From Blepharisma japonicum (taxonomy: Eukaryota; Ciliophora; Heterotrichea; Heterotrichida; Blepharismidae): 64,000 nucleotides of DNA. The DNA lies in NCBI GenBank assembly GCA_949751835.1, contig CATKHK010000074.1:1-64000 (forward strand), in the 5' to 3' direction. A program made the translations under genes and the position numbers. Positions 10,694 to 24,088 of this stretch are shown piece after piece (the stretch's first letter is position 1; every line of letters begins with the position of its first letter). A model generated the notes under the pieces. The model searched no databases and had not been told where the DNA came from. It saw only the letters and a list, made by a program, of their open reading frames with translations.

Positions 10694-12682
10694 TTAGAAA
10701 ACGATGCAGTAACAGGATTTAGAATTTGACTTCTTTTTCGGTTTTATATCAACTTCGACGTCATCAGGATTTATGGGCTCTTCCTCTTCTTCCTTTTTTT
10801 TCTTTTTCCTATTTATACCTTACAATGCTTCGGCAATTTCATATTGCACCCTTCCCAAAATATCACCAAGTTGCTGCCTTTCATCAACCATGATTCCGAG
10901 CTCTTTTTCTAAGTGCGCTATATGATTTAAGACAAGCTGCTTCGTTTCGGCATCATCTCTTTTCCTTGTAGCGTATAATCTATCTTCATATTCTTTTTCT
11001 TTCCTTCTTAGCTCTGAAACCTGATCTTCATACTTATCAGCGATATCTTGGAAATATCTGGCAAAAGCGTTATGCTGGTGCTTCCTGGAAAATTGGCTTA
11101 GCGCAATAAACTTTCCAGGCCCAATAGCTTCTTTTTCATATCTTCTCATAGCTACAGCCCAATCAGTTTCAAGGCCATCAAAGCTTTCAAAGTATTTTCC
11201 TTGCTCAAGATCAACCAAAATATCTCTAAAAAGCTTTTCAATTAATGACAAATTAAACGCCTCAGAAGCTGCTTGGTTTGCTTTAAGTGTGAACGTAATA
11301 TCATCATGATAAAACCCTCCGAATTCTTCTCTACATTCCTCTTCTAAAGCTTCATCTTTCAACTGCACCTCTAAAAGCAGCGCAAGTGCTCTATCCTTTG
11401 CAGTTTGCAATTTAATTAACAGCTCAGAATCATCATATGGCAAATTTTGTATCTCCACATCTCTAGCTTTTATATATCTTTTTTTAATATCAGTCATAAG
11501 TTCTTCATATTGGAGTTTTATAACATGGCTTCAGGCTGTATTAATATTTGGTGCAATTCCATCATTAATTGCTTTGACCATTTCATATAAAAAGCTAAGC
11601 AAATTGCTTCCTTGGATTTCAAGCCCATCAAATTTCTTATGAGGACAGTGCTCAAGTGCAGAAAGCTGGAGTTGCTCAAAGCTTTTTTTGAATTTAGGCC
11701 TTAATGAGTCTAACTCAAGCTCTGAAAGTGCTTCCAGCTGCTTTTCTTGCTCAACAGGCCTTGGAAGTGTGATGCAATCTCTATCAGTAAAAATTTCAAG
11801 TATACCTTCTCTTATTTTATTATATTTATCCACATTTCTTCCTATAGAGATCCTATTTGCTAAAATTTTGTCCATATATTGTTTTGAAGTGATCGGGATA
11901 TCTTCTTCATCTACTAATGCTAAATGAAAATCTCTTAATAGCCATATAAATTTAGGTGCTAAAGCTGCCAATCTTCGCTTTATTTCTTCATCTGAGTCGC
12001 TTGGGGTAATTCTTGTTGATATCAATTCTGATAAAGATGCTGCAAAACTCAGTTGGTTAATAGCCTGCTCATCAATGACTCCTTTAGAATTATAAATAAA
12101 TACAGAAGACAGTAAAATAAGTAGCGAAAATATTTTTGCGTCATGATTTGCAGATTTTTCAACACTTTTGCATCCTTCTGAGTCAAGAAAAATGATACTC
12201 ATATTTGTTGCTTGCATAGGTTCTCCCCATATTCAAATCCCTTGTGTACAAGCAGCTACTCTGCTGCCTACCTCAAAGCCAGAGCCAGTCCCATTTGCTA
12301 AAAGATTCATAACAAAGCTTTTTCCACTTCTAGTAGGTCCACCTATTGAAACGACCCCTATTTTCGTTTTTATCCCTTTTAAAAACTCAGCTCCTTTCTT
12401 ACAGACTTCAAAAGTCCCTGAATCAGTTACTTTAATTAGTTGTATAGGGCCTTGTTGGGTTTTTGTCTCAAATGTGGAGCTTTCTTCATTGTTTTGTTCA
12501 TTTGGGTCATATGCAAATTTTTGATGGACTGAGCTGTAAATCGCTTTAAGAGAAAGGTTTTCTGGAATATCTTCGTTTTGCAGCTGAAGAGGTGGGACAA
12601 ATGGATCCACCTCGTCTTGACGCTCTGAAATTTCAGAGATTTCTGATGAAGATTCACTAGAGACAGATGAAGAGTCGGACAT
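10694..12682 (-). CDS. Guanylate-binding protein (GBP)-like large GTPase with CaaX tail
   Basis: 657 aa. A Ser-rich N-tail precedes a GBP-type GTPase domain: P-loop GGPTRSGKS (114-122), a switch region ending TQGIWIWGEP (first W is TGA), FLDSEG, and LLRDFHL matching the family's RD motif. The rest is helical, as in the GBP stalk. Two internal TGA codons are Trp. A 15-nt intron at 10809-10823 (gtaaggtataaatag) lies near the end; splicing replaces an immediate TAA by a KKKKKEEEEE run and a tail ending CYCIVF, a CaaX box (X = Phe suggests geranylgeranylation) preceded by a basic patch. GBPs are dynamin-related GTPases that assemble on membranes. The gene follows the Rab gene by 35 bp on the same strand. 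Confidence 0.92.
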
Positions 12683-13375: not shown

Positions 13376-13973
13376 TTTAAAAATAATATAAAATTAATCA
13401 ATAAATTCTCTATTTAATAATAAACTTTAATATTCTCTATGATATATATTTATTAAGGAAATAAGGAACGAAAAATGATTTAACTATATTAAATTTCCAC
13501 TTAACACTATCTTTTTTATGATCGATTTATACTTTATCTATATATAAGATTCGGAGTGAAATCTCTCCAATATTATAAATTAAACTATTGATAAAATAAT
13601 CTTGCTGTAAAACTCTATTGGTAAAAAAATCATTTATTAAAAAAAGAGGTGATCTAGTGTTAAGATGAGCACTAATATTAGTTTAACTTATATATATTTT
13701 TTTATATGGATAGATAACAATCTATCTTTAATTCTTCGAAGGATTCCTTTACTGGATTGGCAGCAGATGTCCACATGAACCAACTTAATTTTAAAATTCA
13801 GTTAAAAAATTTTAATTACTTCAGTTCTATTATTAATAAAGAAAAATTGATTAATGCTTTCTTTTTGCACTTCAATTTTTTATTGATTCATTTGTTCACA
13901 AAAGTTTTAATTCTTTATTGGCTTTTTAGAATTTTCATTATTCTGTATATATTTGTCAGTATAATTAAGAAAG
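13376..13973. promoter_or_regulatory. Upstream region of Rab and of the first cyclin copy
   Basis: 598 bp without a gene. From about 13.5 kb rightwards it resembles the region upstream of the cyclin copies at 18546 and 22188, including two palindromes listed separately. The left part should contain the Rab promoter. Confidence 0.5.
13671..13742. promoter_or_regulatory. Palindrome pair upstream of cyclin copy 1
   Basis: ACTAATATTAGT (13671-13682, a perfect 12-bp palindrome) and CTTCGAAGG (13734-13742; the first base of the 10-bp palindrome seen elsewhere is changed). The second lies 241 bp before the ATG. The same pair precedes copies 3, 4 and 5. Confidence 0.55.
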
Positions 13974-14480
13974 ATGGAAAAACTGGCAACAATCAGTCAG
14001 ACAGTGGATTGTGGTTTCTCAATCCTGACGAGTTTTTAATTGCAATATCAATAAGTTTGAGAGCTAATATCAAAGATAGTTCATATCAAGACTTTGACAC
14101 ACTTCCTTTCGGACTCAAATATTTTTTCAGCGATGAACAATTATTTGAGTTTTCATATGCAACAAAAATAAGATATTCCAATTGAAGAGAGCATTTACAA
14201 CTATCTTTACTTGATTTCGGATGATATGAAATTTAGTATAGAATCATGAATACTGGCTTTAGCTTACTTAGAAAAAGTCTCATTAAAGATCCCATTATTG
14301 GGATCAACCTGAAAAATGCTTGTCACTTTCTCTCTTTATAATTCTCGAAGAATCTATGAAATGAATCCCATAGGATGCTTAGAAAATATAGCAAAAAGAT
14401 CAAAAGAAAATTCCCAAGAAATTGAAATGAAAGCAAATATTTATCTTTTCAAAAGAATGTTCTATATAAATATTGATTAA
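13974..14480 (+). pseudogene. Cyclin-Y-like copy 1, broken
   Basis: Clearly homologous to the intact copies at 17276, 20917 and 22188 from ATG to the final TAA. A one-base loss near 14019 (before FLNPDEF), a one-base gain in the stretch near 14165, and loss of about 200 bp covering the second half of the cyclin fold disable it. It belongs with copy 3 in sequence, and like copy 3 it is followed by the duplicated block with the MGSC gene. Confidence 0.8.
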
Positions 14481-15718
14481 GCAGTTATTAATATATTTAA
14501 AACTGTGTTGATAAATTTGATAAGCTCACTTATTTAGAAATGAGAATATAATACTTTTTAAGTTGAATCTAAATTTTTTATTAACGGAATATATAAAATT
14601 AATTTATATTTATTTAAGAGCACTAATAAAAATAATTCAAAATTAAATAAAATGTAATAGAACATAAAAAAGGATAATTTTTTCATCCTTAAATATAAAA
14701 CTACAGCTTTAATTTGTCTGAATTCTCTTGTAAAATTAAGTTTAATTTGAAGAGTTTTTGAAATTAATCCATCATTATATGAATCAAACTACTTTTTTCT
14801 CTATTTAATCGATTGATAGGAAAATCTATGCAATTTATTCAAATGATACTAAGAGTATTAAAAGAAGCATGCAAATATTTCAAACTATTCCAGTATAAAA
14901 ATAGCTTAGATGATCAGTCAAATATAGCACAAGCCATAAAAGTGCTCGTGTATAAATATTTTTATTTGTGATAAAATTTATATCACACTTTTTTATCGTG
15001 GAAATTTATTTTCTGTTGAGAAATAAAATAAGATTATTTTCTGTTACTTAAATGGATTTTACAAACTAAAAATGAAAAAGGAAAACTAATAAATTTGATA
15101 AAAACAAATTATTCAATTTTATTTTAAAATAAATCTATTCGTCGCATAGAGTGCTTGCTTCAACGCTTACTTTTCCAGAACTCCTTCTAAATCTGATCAA
15201 ACGTTTGCTGTATAAGCTGCTTTCATTAATAGCTAAAATGGGAGCATAAGCTGCCTTTTTAACTCTTATTAAATTTCATTGCATTTTTAAATCAGCAATA
15301 GAATCAATTTTAGAATAACTATAATTGTCATTAAATTGATTATTACTACCTGCAACTGTTTTCAAACCTTTTGTATTCTTAGTATAGCAAGAACCCATTT
15401 TTATTTTACTATAAGCGTTAAATAGCGTTGAAAATTTCTCATAAAATAAATAGGAATAGCTTAATGATGGGCAAAGTCAATTTTTTTTAAAATAAATTTA
15501 AAATTTATTGAAGATATTGACTGAGCAACAAAATGACTATGCGATCTGGTTCATAGCTGTAATTGCCTAGAATTGGAATTTTGCAACTGAATTATCTATT
15601 CAAGAAAAGTAATAAAATTTTTAAAATTCTATAGTTTTTTACCAGTTAAAAAATTTTTTTGAAAGTCAAAATGTGTGCTAAAAATGGAATTTCTTTTTAT
15701 ATCAGAATTCAAAAATAT
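14481..15718. repeat. Duplicated block X1 (pair with 19234-20337)
   Basis: About 1.2 kb that matches 19234-20337 nearly base for base over long runs, with small indels (one of ~78 bp near 14845-14922 and one of ~60 bp near 15560 present only here). It follows a broken cyclin copy in both places, so the duplicated unit is cyclin plus this block. It contains a conserved small gene on the minus strand. Confidence 0.85.
15135..15398 (-). CDS. Small MGSC protein, copy 1 (predicted dual acylation)
   Basis: 87 aa, no intron, one TGA as Trp (MQWNLI), stop TAG. The start MGSCYTK has Gly2 and Thr6, fitting N-myristoylation, and Cys4 next to it, a likely palmitoylation site. The rest is hydrophilic with a basic C-terminal half (RVKKAAYAPIL, YSKRLIRFRRSSGK). 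No known domain. The second copy at 19812-20075 encodes the identical protein; all differences I see in the coding part are synonymous, while flanks carry indels. I infer a real gene under purifying selection, probably a membrane-associated peripheral protein. Confidence 0.75.
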
Positions 15719-17275
15719 CTCTTGAGTTGTAAATAGAAATATGGCTCTTCAAATTTAAAGTATTGATATCTTTATAGAGAACTTCCTCTTTTACCTATGA
15801 GTTAAAGAGAATAAATTCATCAGGCTTTAACTGCGCATAACAATAATGAGCTTGCCTTTTTGTACTAAAGGTAATGTCTTCAATTCTGTTTGTTTTCTTC
15901 AAGTATAATATAATGTGCATGAGTGAGTTTCCTTTGCTGAAAAATGCTTTGATATAAGTATACAAATTTTTTACAAACAATTCAATTGCCTTGGCATCTA
16001 TTTTCATCATAGCTTTATTTAAGGACAAATATGGAGATCACACTGGAGTTAAATTTTTTTCGGTAATAATCTTTTGCATTCCGCACACTGCTGCAATAAA
16101 TGCTCATTCCTAGCAAGTGTCTTTGGTCTATCGAGATTATTTTTCCAGTGCTAGAATTCATTTATTCATTTTGAAGATATTAATCCCTCCGTCATAAACT
16201 GAAGCTGCTCCTGCCTAAATAGTTTGAGTACTTTTACAATGAGAATTGATTATATAGGCAACTAATCATCCAGGTAGATAATATTCAATAAATCCTTCAA
16301 TATCAAAAATCAAGTTAGTTTCTTCAATATTTTCAACTTTTCATGTTTTCTTTTTCATCTTGGTTAACAGAAAAATTACTATTCAAAAAAATTGTTACAT
16401 TTAAGAAGTCTCTTCAATTGTTATTTCCAAAAGCAGTAATTTTACGATCTTCTTTAATAGTTAAGCATCCTTCAACAAATGCTTCATCATGTTTCTTGGA
16501 AAATGCAAGAAGTGCTGGAATTTTGGGGCGATTTTTATGTTTCAATTTGGAATAGCAATTTATGAAAACAATTGTGGAATATCCAGACGATCTTCAGTGC
16601 TGCTACTTTTTAATATTCTTCAGATTTCAGCTTCTGTTTCATTCTTTCCTTTATTTTCATAGAAGAAATTGTCTTCAAACAAAAATCTAAATCTTCAGGC
16701 ACCTCTTTCAACAAAAAACGTTATTGGAGCATTTAGAGTTTCTTCTGAGCTCAAGGAGTTATGAGTGCTCAAATTCTTCATATTGGTGCTTGCAATGGCA
16801 ATTAAAAATCTCAAACTTTGGGAAATTATTGATAAATAAGGTGCTTGTGTGAGATTCGATGGCAGTTGTATTGAATAAAGCATAGAAATCTCTTTCGTTT
16901 GAGTGAGGCCTGAATTTGTTGGCTCTTTGGTAGAAAAAATGACGGTTGAGAGCTGCTGGATTGCGTTTGAGTTCTTTTGCTTCCTTTTCGTAAGCGCTTT
17001 TTGGGCAAAGAGTCCATATTTTTTTATTATATAATAGCCATTAAAAAAAGACCCAAATTTTATTAAATTGATCTAATTTTAATATTAAAGATTGATATAA
17101 AAATATAGCCAGAGCTTAGAGATATTGATGGATTATAAATTAAAGTATTTAATAGTGTTTATTTTCACGATTTATTTTCATCGATATAATTAAATAGTTC
17201 AAAAAAATAAATTCTTTATTCATTTTTTAAAACTTTCAAATATTTTGTATATATTTACCAGTATAATAAAGAAAG
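15719..17275 (-). other. Decayed coding-like region, family unknown
   Basis: The minus strand has protein-like stretches in shifting frames from 17017 (start MDSLPKKRLRKGSKRT) down to 15795 (ending QLKPDEFILFNS), broken by several stops and frame changes. One stretch has a Cys pair (CAECKRLLPKK). I do not recognise the family and cannot tell host gene from mobile DNA. The last ~90 bp (17185-17275) match the DNA upstream of copy 4, so this region was inserted beside, or recombined into, the promoter of copy 2. Confidence 0.4.
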
Positions 17276-17968
17276 ATGGAAGAACTGATAACAATCTGCC
17301 GAATATTGGATTGCGAATTTCTCAATCCTGACGAATTTTTAATTGCAATTTCAATAAGTTTGAGAGCTAATATCAAAGAAAGTGTGTATCAATATTTTGA
17401 TTCACTTCCACTTGGTCTCGAATATTTGTTCGGTGATGAGCAATTATTTGAGTTTTCACATTCAAAAGAAAAAGATATTCCAAGTGAAGAGAGTATTTTT
17501 AGCTATCTTTACTTGATTTCGGATGATATGAAATTTAGTATAGAATCATGAATACTGGCTTTAGCTTACTTAGAAAAAGTCTCATCAAAGATCCCATTAC
17601 TGGGATCAAACTGAAAAATGCTTGCCACTTTCTCTCTTTATAATTCTCAAAGAATCTATGAAGCAAACCCCGTAGAATGTTCCAAATTTGCTAAGTGTAT
17701 TCCTAGTATGCAGCTAATTGATTTTATTTTGATAAATCTTGAGTTTCAAGAAGTGATTCAGGATTATTATGAAGCTTCTATACTCGAATTAGCAAAAACA
17801 ACTGGATTAATTCTTAAAAATTTTAAAGCTGATTTAGGAATCGAATGAAAGATGGCTGATGAATGCTTAGAAAATATAGCAAAAAGATCAAAAGAAAATT
17901 CTCAAATCAATGAAATCGAAGCAAATATTTATCGTTCTGAAAGAATGCTCTGCATAAATATTGATTAA
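17276..17968 (+). CDS. Cyclin-Y/PHO80-like protein, copy 2 (intact)
   Basis: 230 aa, no intron; all three conserved Trp codons (in IESW, SNWK, IEWK) are TGA. After an N-terminal FLNPDEFLIAISISLRANIK segment, the part from PSEESI through WILALAYLEKV, NWKMLATFSLYNSQRIYE and DFILINLEFQEVIQDYYEA lines up with the cyclin box of cyclin Y and PHO80-type cyclins, including the Glu of the LE-F-L helix. Such cyclins activate PHO85/CDK14-like kinases. Its upstream DNA lacks the palindrome pair present before the other copies, so expression may differ. Confidence 0.75.
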
Positions 17969-18545
17969 GCAACTATTAATAGATTTAAGGTTATTTCTTT
18001 TCTATTTAACATATTGCATATTTATAAATAATAGATTGCAATAGAATAGCATTTGCTGTGATTTCATAACCATTATGATTCAAAGTCATAATTTTCTTAA
18101 TGAATTCTCTTCAATAAGTAAACTCTAAAGCTGAAATCCCCAGATATTATAAATTAGTCATTTGATAAAATTCATTTAATATAAAACTCTATTGATAATA
18201 AAAATCATTTTCTAAACAAAGAGCTGATCTACTTGTAAAATGGGCACTAATATTAGTTAAACTTATATATATCTATATGGAATAAATAGCAATCTATCTT
18301 TAGCCCTTCGAAGGATTCCGTTACTTGCTTGACAGCATTTTCCACAGAATCTAGCTTAACTCAGCTTTAAGTTTCAAAAATTTTAATTACTTTATCTTTT
18401 AAATTAAATAATCAAAAAAAGCTTTATGATTTATTTTTGTACTTCATTTTTTATTAATTCAATTCTTCGTAAAAAGGTTTAATTCTTCATTGACTTTTTT
18501 AGATATTCAATATTTTGTATGTATTTGTCAGTATATTTAAGAAAG
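17969..18545. promoter_or_regulatory. Spacer between cyclin copies 2 and 3
   Basis: Non-coding. The left part resembles the DNA after copy 4; it has an inverted repeat ATTATGA-7 nt-TCATAAT (18072-18092) that recurs at 21714-21733 and may be a 3' end signal. The right part holds the palindrome pair of copy 3. Confidence 0.5.
18246..18314. promoter_or_regulatory. Palindrome pair upstream of cyclin copy 3
   Basis: ACTAATATTAGT at 18246-18257 and CCTTCGAAGG at 18305-18314, both perfect palindromes; the second lies 241 bp before the ATG. Confidence 0.6.
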
Positions 18546-19233
18546 ATGGAACCGGCAACAATCAGTGAGACAGTAAATTACAAATTTCTCAATCCTGACG
18601 AATTTTTAATTGCAGTTTCAATAAGCTTAAGAGCTAATATCAAAGAAAGTACATATCAAGATTTTGATTCACTTCCACTTGGATTCAGGCATTTTTTCAG
18701 TGATGAGCAATTATCTGAGTTTTCATATTCAAAAGAGAAAGATATTCCAAGTGAAGAGAGCATTTACAACTATCTTTACTTGATTTCAGATGATATGAAA
18801 TTTAGTATAGAATCATGAATACTGGCTTTAACTTACTTAGAAAAAGTCTCATTAAAGATCCCATTATTAGGATCAAATTGGAAAAATATTGCAACTTTTC
18901 TCTTTATAATTCTCAAAGAATCTACGAAACAAACCCTGTAGAATGCTCTGAATTTGCTAGGTGTATTCTTAGTCTGCAACTAGCTGATTTTATTTTGATG
19001 GACACTGAATTTCAAGAAGTGATTCAGAATTATTATGAAGCTTCTAAATCCGAATTAATCAAAACAACTGAACTAATTCTTAAAAACTTTCAAGCTGATT
19101 TAGGAATCGAATGGAAGATGGCTGATGAATACTTAGAAAATTAGCAAAAATATCAAAAGAAAATTCCCAAGAAATTGAAATAAAAGCAAATATTTATCTT
19201 TCCGAAAGAATGCTCTATATAAATACCGATTAA
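18546..19233 (+). pseudogene. Cyclin-Y-like copy 3, broken
   Basis: Near-identical to copy 5 over most of its length. The N-terminal 90 codons are open, but one base is missing near 18896 (ACTTTTCTCTTT against 13 bases in the sister copies) and another near 19141, where AAAATTAGC replaces AAAATATAGC and creates a TAG. Neither loss can be a 15/16-nt intron. Trp codons are a mix of TGA and TGG. The upstream palindromes are still perfect, so decay looks recent. Confidence 0.75.
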
Positions 19234-20337
19234 GCAGATATTAATATATTTAAAACTGTGCTGATAAAAATCAATAAGCTCAATTATTTAGAAAATGAGA
19301 ATATAATAATTTTTAAGTTGAATCTGAATTTTTTATTAACGGAATATATAAAATTAATTTATATTTATTTAATGAACACAAACGAAAATAATTCAAAATT
19401 AAATAAAATGTAAAAGCATAAAAAAGGATAATTTTTTCATACTTAAATATAAAACAACAGCTTTTAATTTGTTTGAATTCTCCTGTAAAAATAAGTTTAA
19501 TTTTAAGAGTTTTTGAAATTAATCCATCATTATATGAATCAAACTACTTTATTCTCTATTAATCGATTGATAGGAAAATCTATGCAATTTATTCTTAAAT
19601 ATAGCACAAGCCATAAAAGTGCTCGTGTATAAATGTTTTATTTGTGATAAAATTTATATCACACTTTTTTATCGTGGAAATTTATTTTCTGTTGAGAAAT
19701 AAAATAAGATTATTTTCTGTTACTTAAATGGAATTTTACAAACTAAAAATGAAAAAGGAAAACTAATAAATTTGATAAAAACAAATTATTCAATTTTATT
19801 TTAAAATAAATCTATTCGTCGCACAAAGTGCTTGCTTCAACGCTTACTTTTCCAGAACTCCTTCTAAATCTGATCAAACGTTTGCTATATAAGCTGCTTT
19901 CATTAATAGCTAAAATGGGAGCATAAGCTGCCTTTTTAACTCTTATTAAATTTCATTGCATTTTTAAATCAGCAATAGAATCAATTTTAGAATAACTATA
20001 ATTGTCATTAAATTGATTATTACTACCTGCAACTGTTTTCAAACCTTTTGTATTCTTAGTATAGCAAGAACCCATTTTTATTTTACTATAAGCGTTAAAT
20101 AGCGTTGAAAATTTCTCATAAAATAAATAGGAATAGCTTAATGATTGGCAAAGTCAATTTTTTTTAAAATAAATTTAAAAATTATGGAAGACATTGACTG
20201 AGCAACAAAATGGCCATGCGATTTGCTTCATAGAATTTTTAAAATTCCATAGTTTTTTACCAGTAAAAAAAAATTTTTGAAAGTCAAACTGTGTGCTAAA
20301 AATGGACTTTCTTTTTTATATCAGAATTCAAAAATAT
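19234..20337. repeat. Duplicated block X2 (pair with 14481-15718)
   Basis: Second copy of the block after a broken cyclin. It lacks the two insertions present in X1. Similarity ends abruptly after ATATCAGAATTCAAAAATAT in both copies. Confidence 0.85.
19812..20075 (-). CDS. Small MGSC protein, copy 2 (predicted dual acylation)
   Basis: Encodes the same 87-aa protein as 15135-15398. Codon differences seen: CTA to TTG (Leu) near the C-terminus and TAC to TAT (Tyr), no amino-acid change. MGSC start, TGA as Trp at residue 41, stop TAG. Also lies on the minus strand, tail to tail with the broken cyclin copy 3 and head to head with copy 4 downstream. Confidence 0.75.
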
Positions 20338-20916
20338 AAGATTATGAGTTCATATAACCTTCTTTTATTACTAATGCTTAGGAATTTTAAGATTTAGAAA
20401 TTGAAAATTTTTTATTGGAAGAAGAAATAATATCAGATTTTTCATAAAATCGATTAAAAATTTGGGGAAATTGTGCATGATGAAATAATTATTTTTGCAT
20501 CTAAAATTGTTGCATAGAGAAGAGATTAAAGCACTAAGACCTGATAAAATAAATATTTAGTCAATTATGAAATAGAGAGTAGAAAACCATTTTTTATAAA
20601 GCATGGAGCTGACATGCTGCTAAAATGAGCACTAATATTAGCTCAACCCTCTATATATCTATACCAATTTATCTTTAACCTTCGAAGGATTCTTTATAAT
20701 CTTTGCAGCAGATTTCCTTATAATTAGCTTAATTCTAACTTTCAGTTAAAAAATTTAATTACTTCATCTCAATCATTAAATAAACAAAAATTGCTTAATG
20801 AGTTATTTTTGCACTTAGTTTTGTATTGATTTAATAGTTCAAAAAAAATTAATTCTTTATTCACTTTTTAAAACTTTCCAATATTTTGTATATATTTACC
20901 AGTATAATAAAGGAAG
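20338..20916. promoter_or_regulatory. Upstream region of cyclin copy 4
   Basis: Non-coding; the right half is similar to the regions upstream of copies 1, 3 and 5 and carries the palindrome pair. Nothing recognisable at 20338-20580. Confidence 0.5.
20631..20688. promoter_or_regulatory. Palindrome pair upstream of cyclin copy 4
   Basis: ACTAATATTAGC (20631-20642, last base off the palindrome) and CCTTCGAAGG (20679-20688), the latter 238 bp before the ATG. Confidence 0.6.
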
Positions 20917-21609
20917 ATGGAAGAACTGGTAACAATCTGTCAAATAGTGGATTGCGAATTTCTCAATCCTGATGAATTTTTAATTGCAATTTCAATAAGT
21001 TTGAGAGCTAACATCAAAGAAAGTGTATATCAAGATTTTGATTCACTTCCACTTGGTCTCGAATATTTGTTCGGTGATGAGCAATTATTTGAGTTTTCAC
21101 ATTCAAAAGAAAAAGATATTCCAAGTGAAGAGAGCATTTACAGCTATCTTTACTTGATTTCAGATGATATGAAATTTAGTATAGAATCATGAATACTGGC
21201 TTTAGCTTACATAGAAAAAGTCTCATCAAAGATCCCATTATTGGCATCAAACTGAAAAATGCTTGCCACTTTCTCTCTTTATAATTCTCAAAGAATCTAT
21301 GAAGCAAACCCCGTAGAATGTTCCAAATTTGCTAAGTGCATTCCTAGTCTGCAGCTAATTGATTTTATTTTGATAAATCTTGAGTTCCAAGAAGTGATTC
21401 AGGATTATTATGAAGCTTCTAAACTCGAATTAACAAAAACAACTGGATTAATTCTTAAAAATTTTAAAGCTGATTTAGGAATCGAATGAAAGATGGCTGA
21501 TGAATGCTTAGAAAATATAGCAAAAAGATCAAAAGAAAATTCTCAAACCAATGAAATCGAAGCAAATATTTATCGTTCTGAAAGAATGCTCTGTATAAAT
21601 ATTGATTAA
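20917..21609 (+). CDS. Cyclin-Y/PHO80-like protein, copy 4 (intact)
   Basis: 230 aa, no intron, the three conserved Trp again all TGA. Nearly identical to copy 2 (for example RILD against QIVD near the N-terminus, GSNW against ASNW in the fold). Same cyclin-box features. Being intact with its palindromic upstream region, it is the best candidate for the expressed member of its pair. Confidence 0.77.
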
Positions 21610-22187
21610 GCAGCTATTAATATATATAAGGTTATTTCTTTTCTATTTTAACATATTACATATTTATAAATAATAGATTGCAATAGAATAGCATTTGCTG
21701 TGATTTCATAACCATTATGATTCAAAGTCATAAATTCCTTTATGGATTCTCTTCAATAAGTAAACTCTAAAGCTGAAATCTCCTATATTATAAATTAGTC
21801 TATTGATAGAACTCATTTAGTGTAAAACTCTATTGATAATAAAAATCATTTTTCTAAAACAAAGAGCTGACCTGCTTGCAAAATGGACACTAATATTAGT
21901 TCAACTTATATATGGCTATACGGAATAAATAGCAATCTATCTTTAGCCCTTCGAAGGATTCCTTTACTGGCTTGACAGCAAATTTCCACACAATCTAGCT
22001 TGATTCAGCTTTTAGTTTCAAAAATTTTAATTACTTTATCTTTCTAATTAAATAATCTAAAAAAGCTTTATGATTTATTTTTGCACTTCAATTTTTATTA
22101 ATTCAATTCTTCATAAAAAATTTAATTCTTTATTCACTTTTTAGATATTCAATATTTTGTATGTATTTGTCAGTATATTTAAGAAAG
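21610..22187. promoter_or_regulatory. Spacer between cyclin copies 4 and 5
   Basis: Matches the spacer between copies 2 and 3 along most of its length, including the ATTATGA/TCATAA inverted repeat at 21714-21733 and the palindrome pair. Copies 2-3 and 4-5 are therefore two copies of one two-gene unit (1270-1271 bp ATG to ATG in both). Confidence 0.55.
21889..21957. promoter_or_regulatory. Palindrome pair upstream of cyclin copy 5
   Basis: ACTAATATTAGT (21889-21900) and CCTTCGAAGG (21948-21957), 240 bp before the ATG. Confidence 0.6.
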
Positions 22188-22880
22188 ATGGAAGAACCGG
22201 CAACAATCAGTGAGACAGTATATTGCGAATTTCTCAATCCTGACGAATTTTTAATTGCAGTTTCAATAAGCTTAAGAGCTAATATCAAAGAAAGTGCATA
22301 TCAAGATTTTGATCCACTTCCACTTGGATTCAGGCATTTTTTCGGTGATGAACAATTATTTGAGTTTTCATATTCAAAAGAAAAAGATATTCCAAGTGAA
22401 GAGAGCATTTACAGCTATCTTTACTTGATTTCAGATGATATGAAATTTAGTATAGAATCATGAATACTGGCCTTAGCTTACTTAGAAAAAGTCTCCTTAA
22501 AGATCCCATTATTAGGATCAAATTGGAAAATGATTACAACTTTGTCACTTTATAATTCTCAAAGAATCTACGAAACAAACCCCGTAGAATGCTCTGCATT
22601 TGCTAGGTGTATTCCTAGTCTGCAATTCGCTGATTTTATTTTGATGAACATTGAATTTCAAGAAGTAATTCAGAATTATTATGAAGCTTCTAAATCCGAA
22701 TTAATCAAAACAACTGAATTAATCCTTAAAAACTTTCAAGCAGATTTAGGAATCGAATGGAAGATGGCTGATGAATGCTTAGAAAATATAGCCAAAAGGA
22801 CAAAAGAAAATTCCCAAGCAAATGAAATAGAAGAAAATATTTATCATTCTGAAAGAATGCTCTACATAAATATTGATTAA
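22188..22880 (+). CDS. Cyclin-Y/PHO80-like protein, copy 5 (intact)
   Basis: 230 aa, no intron. Trp codons are TGA, TGG, TGG where copies 2 and 4 have TGA three times, which directly shows that TGA and TGG are interchangeable here. The ATG at 22188 is chosen over one 27 nt upstream because it aligns with the start of copies 2 and 4. The N-terminus (MEEPATISETV) differs most between the two subfamilies, the cyclin fold least. Confidence 0.77.
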
Positions 22881-24088
22881 GTATCTATTATATATAATTA
22901 TTACGATTTCTTTTCTATTTTAAAATATCAAATACTTATAAATAAATAGATTGAAATAGAATAACATTAATGTGATATCATAGCCATTATAATTCAATCC
23001 AAATTTAATAATATAAAATTCAGTACTTAATCAAAATTTACCTCCAAATTATTTAAGAAAAAGTACCTGGAATTATATGAATCGAAATTAAGAAAATATA
23101 ACAGCTCATTGATTGTCTTATTATTGAATAATGTTTAACTATGTACAATATGAGAAAATTTGATAAAATAAAAAATGCATCATTAGTTGGATTAGCGGCA
23201 AAATTTTGATTAACGTAAAGGAGACTTATATCTTGTAAAAAAATTCAAAAAGCGCCATTAATTTTATTTTTAATATGAAAATATGAATTAATAATTTTAA
23301 AGAGTAATAGCTTGAGCGATAGTATAACACTATTCTTTAAGAAAAAAATTATGAATCCAATATTGTAAAGCAAGCATTAAAGGCATGCTTTAGATCATAG
23401 ATATTTTGAATGCTGCAGGAAAAACAGAGAGAATTTATAATTGCCTGTAATTTTAGACACAAAATGCTATGACCTATTTGCCTTAAAAATTTTAAATAAT
23501 TTTTTATCTATAACTTATAGCAATACACACGCATTATTTTAGCTCTTATGAGCTTTTCACTCATCAGTCAGTGATTTTTACATCTCTTTTATTGATGACT
23601 TCATGCTTGCTATCCTTTGTCTCCATGCTGCATCACACCTTGTCCTTCAGTACTTTTCATTGAAACCCCTTATTTCTGCATTCGCATATCGTACCACATC
23701 ATCTCAGATATGTATCATTCAAATGCCTCAAGTTTGAGTTCTTCCAGCCTTTTTGTTGGCTCTTTTGTTGATTTCTTTGTTGGCTTCTCTGTTAGTAAAT
23801 TGTCTAGTTCTTTGGTTTACTCTTTTGTTGGTTTTCTTGCTGGTTCTTTGTTAATAAATTTGTGAACTTACTAAGATTGAGAAAAAGCAAAGGTCAAAAA
23901 GAATCCCATTAGAAAAAAAATATAAAGATCTATGACGACTGAAAGTATATAATTTACATATAAGCATAAGCATTCTACTTAGAAGCTTAAAGCAGCTTAT
24001 AGAAAAAAATGTAATATAGTTTTTTGATCGAATTTTAATATAGATTGAGTTGTTAGGCATTAATTAAAATTATTAAATCACATTAAAT
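22881..24088. other. End of cyclin array; no supported gene
   Basis: To about 23000 it resembles the 3' flanks of copies 2 and 4. At 23650-23820 the minus strand has a short Lys/Thr/Pro repeat stretch (TEKPTKKSTKEPTKR) without a start; at 23870-24025 the plus strand has a stretch ending RSLKQLIEKNVI-stop. Both could be relics or exons of a gene I cannot assemble. Confidence 0.35.

Follow-up and report, generated by a model that had tools for sequence, protein, structure and literature searches.

A family of tiny basic proteins with a predicted lipid anchor and a conserved 19-residue core in the ciliate Blepharisma japonicum

ISP proteins reportedly mark sub-compartments of the inner membrane complex of Toxoplasma. 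These apicomplexan proteins, of which ISP1, 2 and 3 are named in the abstract of the source report, are targeted via N-terminal residues predicted to be myristoylated and palmitoylated, and their G2A and Cys mutants are mistargeted (PMC2936552). A comparable start is found in the product of a small gene present twice in a 64,000-nucleotide stretch of Blepharisma japonicum DNA, the window (contig CATKHK010000074.1, positions 1 to 64,000, assembly GCA_949751835.1). The two copies lie on the minus strand at 15135..15398 and 19812..20075, where a first-pass annotation made from the sequence letters had placed a pair of overlooked genes. Each contains a single TGA codon read as Trp (codon 41 in the first copy), and their identical 87-residue products begin with Met-Gly-Ser-Cys (MGSC) and, in the first copy, end at a TAG stop. 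Proteins with this type of start form a family in the genome, which we call MGxC. Whereas the ISP abstract names three proteins, MGxC numbers 45 members or more, which share a short invariant core, and no sequence relation between the two groups was seen. Searches against Pfam with 44 of the 45 members (one straddling two loci was omitted) gave no match at E < 0.02, the best E being 0.023 and the matches falling in seven families with one member each. Profile searches of the PDB with 24 and with 44 members yielded no match at E <= 10, and searches with the window protein as query in prokaryote and viral collections, sensitive to close relatives only, produced 149 and 20 pattern matches, none of which was confirmed. 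The kind of protein, a dual-acylated small membrane protein, is already known, while MGxC looks new as a family, in its size and in its core; judged by title and the start of the abstract, no paper retrieved was recognisably about it.

At least 45 MGxC members on 17 contigs were recovered at E <= 0.001 from the 45.2 Mb, 224-contig genome. They were identified by searching the genome with the window protein (15 matches) and with seven further single proteins, by scanning the reading frames of the arrays, and with a profile of the core only; the seventh further query added nothing new except one weak row. This number is a lower bound because weak matches, all in long frames, stayed outside the count (C11:417989, E 0.56; C60:76051, E 1.06; C20:247863, E 3.55; C6:817674, E 1.34; C numbers denote contigs). 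The proteins range from 73 to 113 residues. The C3 array (713-740 kb) holds sixteen of the genes, all on the minus strand, and the C8 array (469-481 kb) six, all on the plus strand; the others are the window pair and 21 further members. Four of the six C8 members group with members of the C3 array (support 0.86-0.99) in an order that is inverted between the contigs, and the genes flanking the arrays at corresponding ends (C3:711153-712217 and C8:481736-482800) are similar when their first 50 residues are compared by eye, suggesting that one of the arrays probably arose from the other by an ancient duplication. The likeness of the flanking genes points to an old segmental or genome duplication, and several scattered members are also paired (C7/C54, C26/C45, C1/C28, C2/C59, C2/C100, C3/C102 and C6/C24). 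In a family tree from which the second window copy was excluded, the first groups at an SH-like support of 0.94 with the C3 members 730026, 733614, 735656 and 737798, and the DNA upstream of both window copies aligns with that of the same four genes. The window pair is probably an offshoot related to the C3-array members that was duplicated jointly with a cyclin-like gene.

All 45 members start with M-G-x-C, with Ser (23) or Leu (9) as the most frequent residues at position 3. They also share a basic core of 19 residues with the pattern K-A-x2-A-P-x-L-x-[IL]-x2-[NS]-x-L-[YF]-x2-R, and M1, G2, C4, K48, P53, L55, L62 and R66 are invariant throughout. Position 52 is Ala in 42 members and Val in three, position 57 Leu in 22 and Ile in 21, position 60 Asn in 26 and Ser in 19, and position 63 Tyr in 38 and Phe in four (Y or F in 42/45). 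Single members depart from this layout: C8:478506 has one extra residue within the core, and in C3:735656 a TAA codon, past which the similarity continues, has removed the end of the tail. The Met-Gly stands at the start of the open reading frame in every case, as the first in-frame Met in 42 members and with an upstream in-frame Met in three, as judged on the fetched stretches, to the edge of which the C26 and C28:409878 frames extend. The common start is not simply a product of how members were selected, since the core-only profile lacks the N-terminus and the matches that first revealed 11 of the loci (four, six and one with three queries) started no earlier than query residue 25. Outside the family, none of 255 ATG open reading frames begins with MGxC, and two of 2,876 Met residues are followed by GxC.

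The ratio of non-silent to silent differences (pN/pS) lies between 0.17 and 0.63 in 23 paralogue pairs with more than 45% amino acid identity, the window pair, a twenty-fourth, having been set aside; three of the 23 repeat a comparison using the second window copy. These ratios are uncorrected and probably overestimate dN/dS, because silent sites are near saturation in many pairs (pS 0.46-0.81). MGxC is a real, selected protein family. The first-pass annotation had taken the window protein to be real and conserved, and both the 45 members with a common start and the purifying selection seen across copies bear this out. Where it had allowed for a lack of further homologues or for broken frames, a large family under purifying selection was found; because members were called from open frames, broken copies are under-counted.

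The N-terminus of these proteins suggests how they might reach a membrane. The genome encodes an N-myristoyltransferase (NMT; PF01233 at C78:110022-110498, 235 bits against a cut-off of 25). This enzyme favours a small residue or Ser/Thr at position 6, which in the 45 members is Ser (14), Gly (11), Thr (8), Asn (4), Cys (3), Ala (2) or another residue (3); Ser or Thr occurs in 22, against a mean of 7.3 after shuffling. By analogy with the ISP proteins (PMC2936552), we predict with good confidence that Gly2 is myristoylated and Cys4 palmitoylated. In the window the corresponding codons lie at 15387..15398 and 20064..20075 on the minus strand, and the membrane binding that had been proposed from the MGSC start alone is probable for the family, given M-G-x-C in 45/45 members and the NMT gene. 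Net charge is positive in every member (+1 to +15, mean +7.9), with a mean of +5.9 in the core, and we likewise have good confidence that the basic core would add affinity for acidic lipids. Src- and MARCKS-type anchors, as generally described, resemble MGxC in combining a Gly2 lipid, here a predicted one, with net positive charge. Unlike in those proteins, the basic stretch of MGxC is the conserved core itself and not a separate effector domain, and Cys4 is invariant.

Our preferred interpretation, which we hold to be somewhat more likely than not, is that MGxC is a large family of tiny basic proteins anchored at the inner face of a membrane whose core serves as a docking peptide. The docking role of the core is the part in which we have low confidence. 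In the window this candidate peptide corresponds to codons 48-66, at 15201..15257 in the first copy and 19878..19934 in the second (both minus strand). The linker and tail around it are variable and rich in Ser/Thr (18% and 25%, compared with 6% in the core), and would let the core work as a membrane-tethered docking peptide. Its K-A-x2-A-P-x-L-x-[IL] part may sit in the groove of a MAP kinase (MAPK) or of a calcineurin-type phosphatase, and each paralogue may recruit or sequester that partner in a membrane domain or at a life stage of its own. A relaxed pattern of our own, P-x-[ILVF]-x-[ILVFM], matches 43 of the 45 members, against a mean of 6.0 in shuffled sequences. MAPK docking motifs of the DCC class have the same succession of a basic residue, a short linker and P-x-phi-x-phi, and are described by a loose consensus (PMC4670726). 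MGxC departs from them in adding the invariant L62 and R66 and in rarely fitting the strict DCC pattern. The PxIxIT peptide of FAM126A (PSISIT), which docks calcineurin to a plasma-membrane complex (PMC8523714), carries its hydrophobic residues in the same register as P-x-L-x-[IL]. However, in MGxC the first hydrophobic position is always Leu, and the Thr at the last position is not conserved.

Several results count against this interpretation. The strict pattern [RK].{2,4}[LIVP]P.[LIV].[LIVMF], written from general knowledge, fits 2 of the 45 members (shuffled mean 0.7), and 44 are matched once Ala is permitted before the Pro; a general D-motif pattern of the same origin fits 34, where shuffled sequences give a mean of 23.5 and a maximum of 31. 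Such counts show conservation and not the identity of a partner, because shuffling ignores common descent. Because the genome was searched with full-length queries, members without M-G-x-C could have escaped notice. An amphipathic helix preceding the core was considered and rejected (moment 0.204, shuffled 0.279), and an AlphaFold model of the MGSC protein alone from a single sequence was uninformative (mean pLDDT 37.1). A kinase, a phosphatase, a sorting adaptor and the cytoskeleton are not told apart as core partners by the present evidence. As a tentative extension, MGxC could be a lineage-specific, heavily expanded set of 45 or more lipid-anchored mini-adaptors. All would present one and the same 19-residue docking peptide, vary chiefly in linker and tail, and thereby allot one signalling enzyme to many membrane domains or life-cycle stages. 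If true, a single enzyme would be spread in this way across a large ciliate cell. The family lends itself to testing how such a cell positions signalling or cortical partners at its membranes, and the core is small enough for direct use as a peptide bait.

Two alternatives assign the core another task. Dual-acylated structural proteins might line domains of the pellicle or cortical membrane in the manner of the ISP proteins, with the core binding a cytoskeletal partner; the large number of paralogues and the variability of their tails would match a large number of cortical domains, and the net positive charge of all members fits such a role. We regard this as possible but doubtful, as the Pfam and PDB searches gave no match at E < 0.02 and E <= 10, respectively, for the members examined, and a core of 19 residues, five of them invariant, that contains no recognised domain looks more like a docking peptide than a structural unit. 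A role in vesicle traffic is decidedly unlikely, although the [NS]-x-L-[YF] part of the core, found in 42/45 members against a shuffled mean of 3.5, could be read as an NPxY-like sorting motif that would make these proteins membrane adaptors. The Pro expected at the second position of that motif is present in nine of the 45 and is not conserved, the equally invariant upstream residues K48, P53 and L55 would be left unexplained, and the comparison with NPxY, drawn from general knowledge, relies on shuffles that again disregard descent.

The remaining alternatives concern the duplicated unit in which the window pair lies, which comprises a broken cyclin-like gene plus MGSC block at 13561..15700 and a frame-shifted cyclin-like gene plus MGSC block at 18131..20330. 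The two MGSC copies might be alike merely through recent duplication or gene conversion, as nonfunctional passengers of a repeat. Their coding sequences differ at 3 of 264 positions, all silent as had been claimed, with two changes in one Leu codon and one in a Tyr codon; the near flanks, with 5 differences in 336 positions, are almost as alike, comprising 4 in 132 aligned positions of the 5′ flank and 1 in 204 aligned bases plus two gap columns of the 3′ flank (14930-15134 in the first copy). Divergence is 0-2% in nearly all 100-base bins of an island around the gene (about 14761-15460), the single exception being a bin with only 42 aligned positions at 4.8%, and the island reaches into the 3′ flanking DNA, so gene conversion could explain the identity of the pair; purifying selection, conversion or both would give such an island. 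Non-silent sites (0 changes in 210) do not differ significantly from the near flanks (P = 0.16), although they do when farther 3′ flank is included (26 differences in 686 positions; P = 0.0015). As proof of selection, the identity of the pair was rejected on these grounds, and it is weak evidence alone because the adjoining flanks are nearly as similar. The first-pass annotation, which had made it the main argument and contrasted it with indel-rich surroundings, was right about the identical proteins and the existence of large indels, but these are confined to DNA beyond a stretch of about 600 bp that holds the coding sequence and its almost unchanged near flanks, and the argument was overstated. 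Part of it survives: silent changes (3/51 sites) outnumber non-silent ones (0/210; Fisher P = 0.007), and three random changes would all be silent with a probability of 0.0125. Both MGSC frames are open and retain an undamaged start, core and tail, whereas both cyclins of the unit are broken and the cyclin-like half has diverged by 5-33% per 100-base bin. With the family as a whole under selection, we consider the passenger explanation unlikely. It is very improbable that MGSC is a functional partner of the neighbouring cyclin-like genes, the joint role suggested in the first-pass annotation. In its favour, both gene types share one duplicated unit, a cyclin-like paralogue on C5, with 28% identity to the window cyclin, scores 24.5 bits where the Pfam Cyclin_N cut-off is 23, a cyclin-like cluster on C113 lies near an MGLC member, and a K-R-L-I string in the window copies resembles the cyclin-binding RxL motif as generally known. 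However, 43 of the 45 members are elsewhere, none of the MGSC matches listed is on C155, which holds a cyclin cluster, the window cyclins stay under the Pfam cut-off, with 14.4 bits or no match, and both cyclins of the unit are broken beside intact MGSC genes; the suggestion of joint work is not upheld. The RxL pattern ([RK].L.{0,1}[FYLIVMP], from general knowledge) was tried and dropped, matching 21/45 members with a shuffled mean of 24.6 and thus not being enriched.

The cyclin-like genes themselves are represented by five copies in window 13974-22880, open at 17276, 20917 and 22188 and broken at 13974 and 18519. The two broken copies are those of the duplicated unit; each is spread across two or more frames, and the first, counted in gap columns of their alignment, is missing some 185 bases that the second has. 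At least 25 matches to the window cyclin were obtained at E <= 0.001, with relatives clustering on C155 and C113 and, among the matches listed, none on the C3 or C8 arrays. The MGSC neighbours are plausibly divergent cyclins, judging by their C5 relative; an AlphaFold model of a cyclin-like protein aligned with the three open window copies was uninformative (mean pLDDT 35.0). Adjacency of MGSC and cyclin-like genes was seen only in the window unit. On C113 the cyclin-like genes span 81969-95763 and the MGLC member is at 105677, about 10 kb away, which is a weak hint because about 0.08 such neighbourhoods are expected by chance, as roughly calculated by hand from some 21 MGSC and 9 cyclin sites away from the window, a distance of 10 kb to either side and a genome of 45 Mb.

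Upstream of the window genes, the stretches at 15399..15445 and 20076..20122 (minus strand), which align with the upstream DNA of the closest paralogues, are a candidate promoter element; an alignment of seven upstream stretches, made without a chance control, gives the consensus CAACnCCATTAAA followed by TATA. On the other side of the first copy, 14930-15134 has changed less than the silent sites of the gene itself. This segment has no Rfam match and could be a gene conversion tract or an unrecognised element. An Rfam scan of window 13500-23000 gave two sub-threshold snoRNA matches, neither within the MGSC block.

Repeats of CCCTAACA gave 168 pattern hits in the genome, and among the places listed those near position 1 and those on C6 and C7 are at contig ends. 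CCCTAACA is the telomere repeat reported for Blepharisma stoltei, which has a 41-Mb macronuclear genome and UGA as a Trp codon (PMC9942806), and the reading of TGA as Trp therefore fits the source genome, which on these grounds we regard as a macronuclear one of Blepharisma. Small genes containing TGA can escape standard-code scans. Spacings between GTA and TAG in the window showed no clear peak at the 15-16 bases looked for as a sign of tiny introns. Elsewhere in the window, 15714-17000 (minus strand) shares about 90% similarity with C37:38172-38982 and with C87:180278-181599, the latter located at a contig end; its minus-strand reading is in pieces, and the C87 counterpart has an open 221-residue frame with no Pfam match. 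At 10820-12682, also on the minus strand, lies a gene for a guanylate-binding-protein-like GTPase (Pfam GBP, 176.5 bits) that is likewise read with TGA as Trp.

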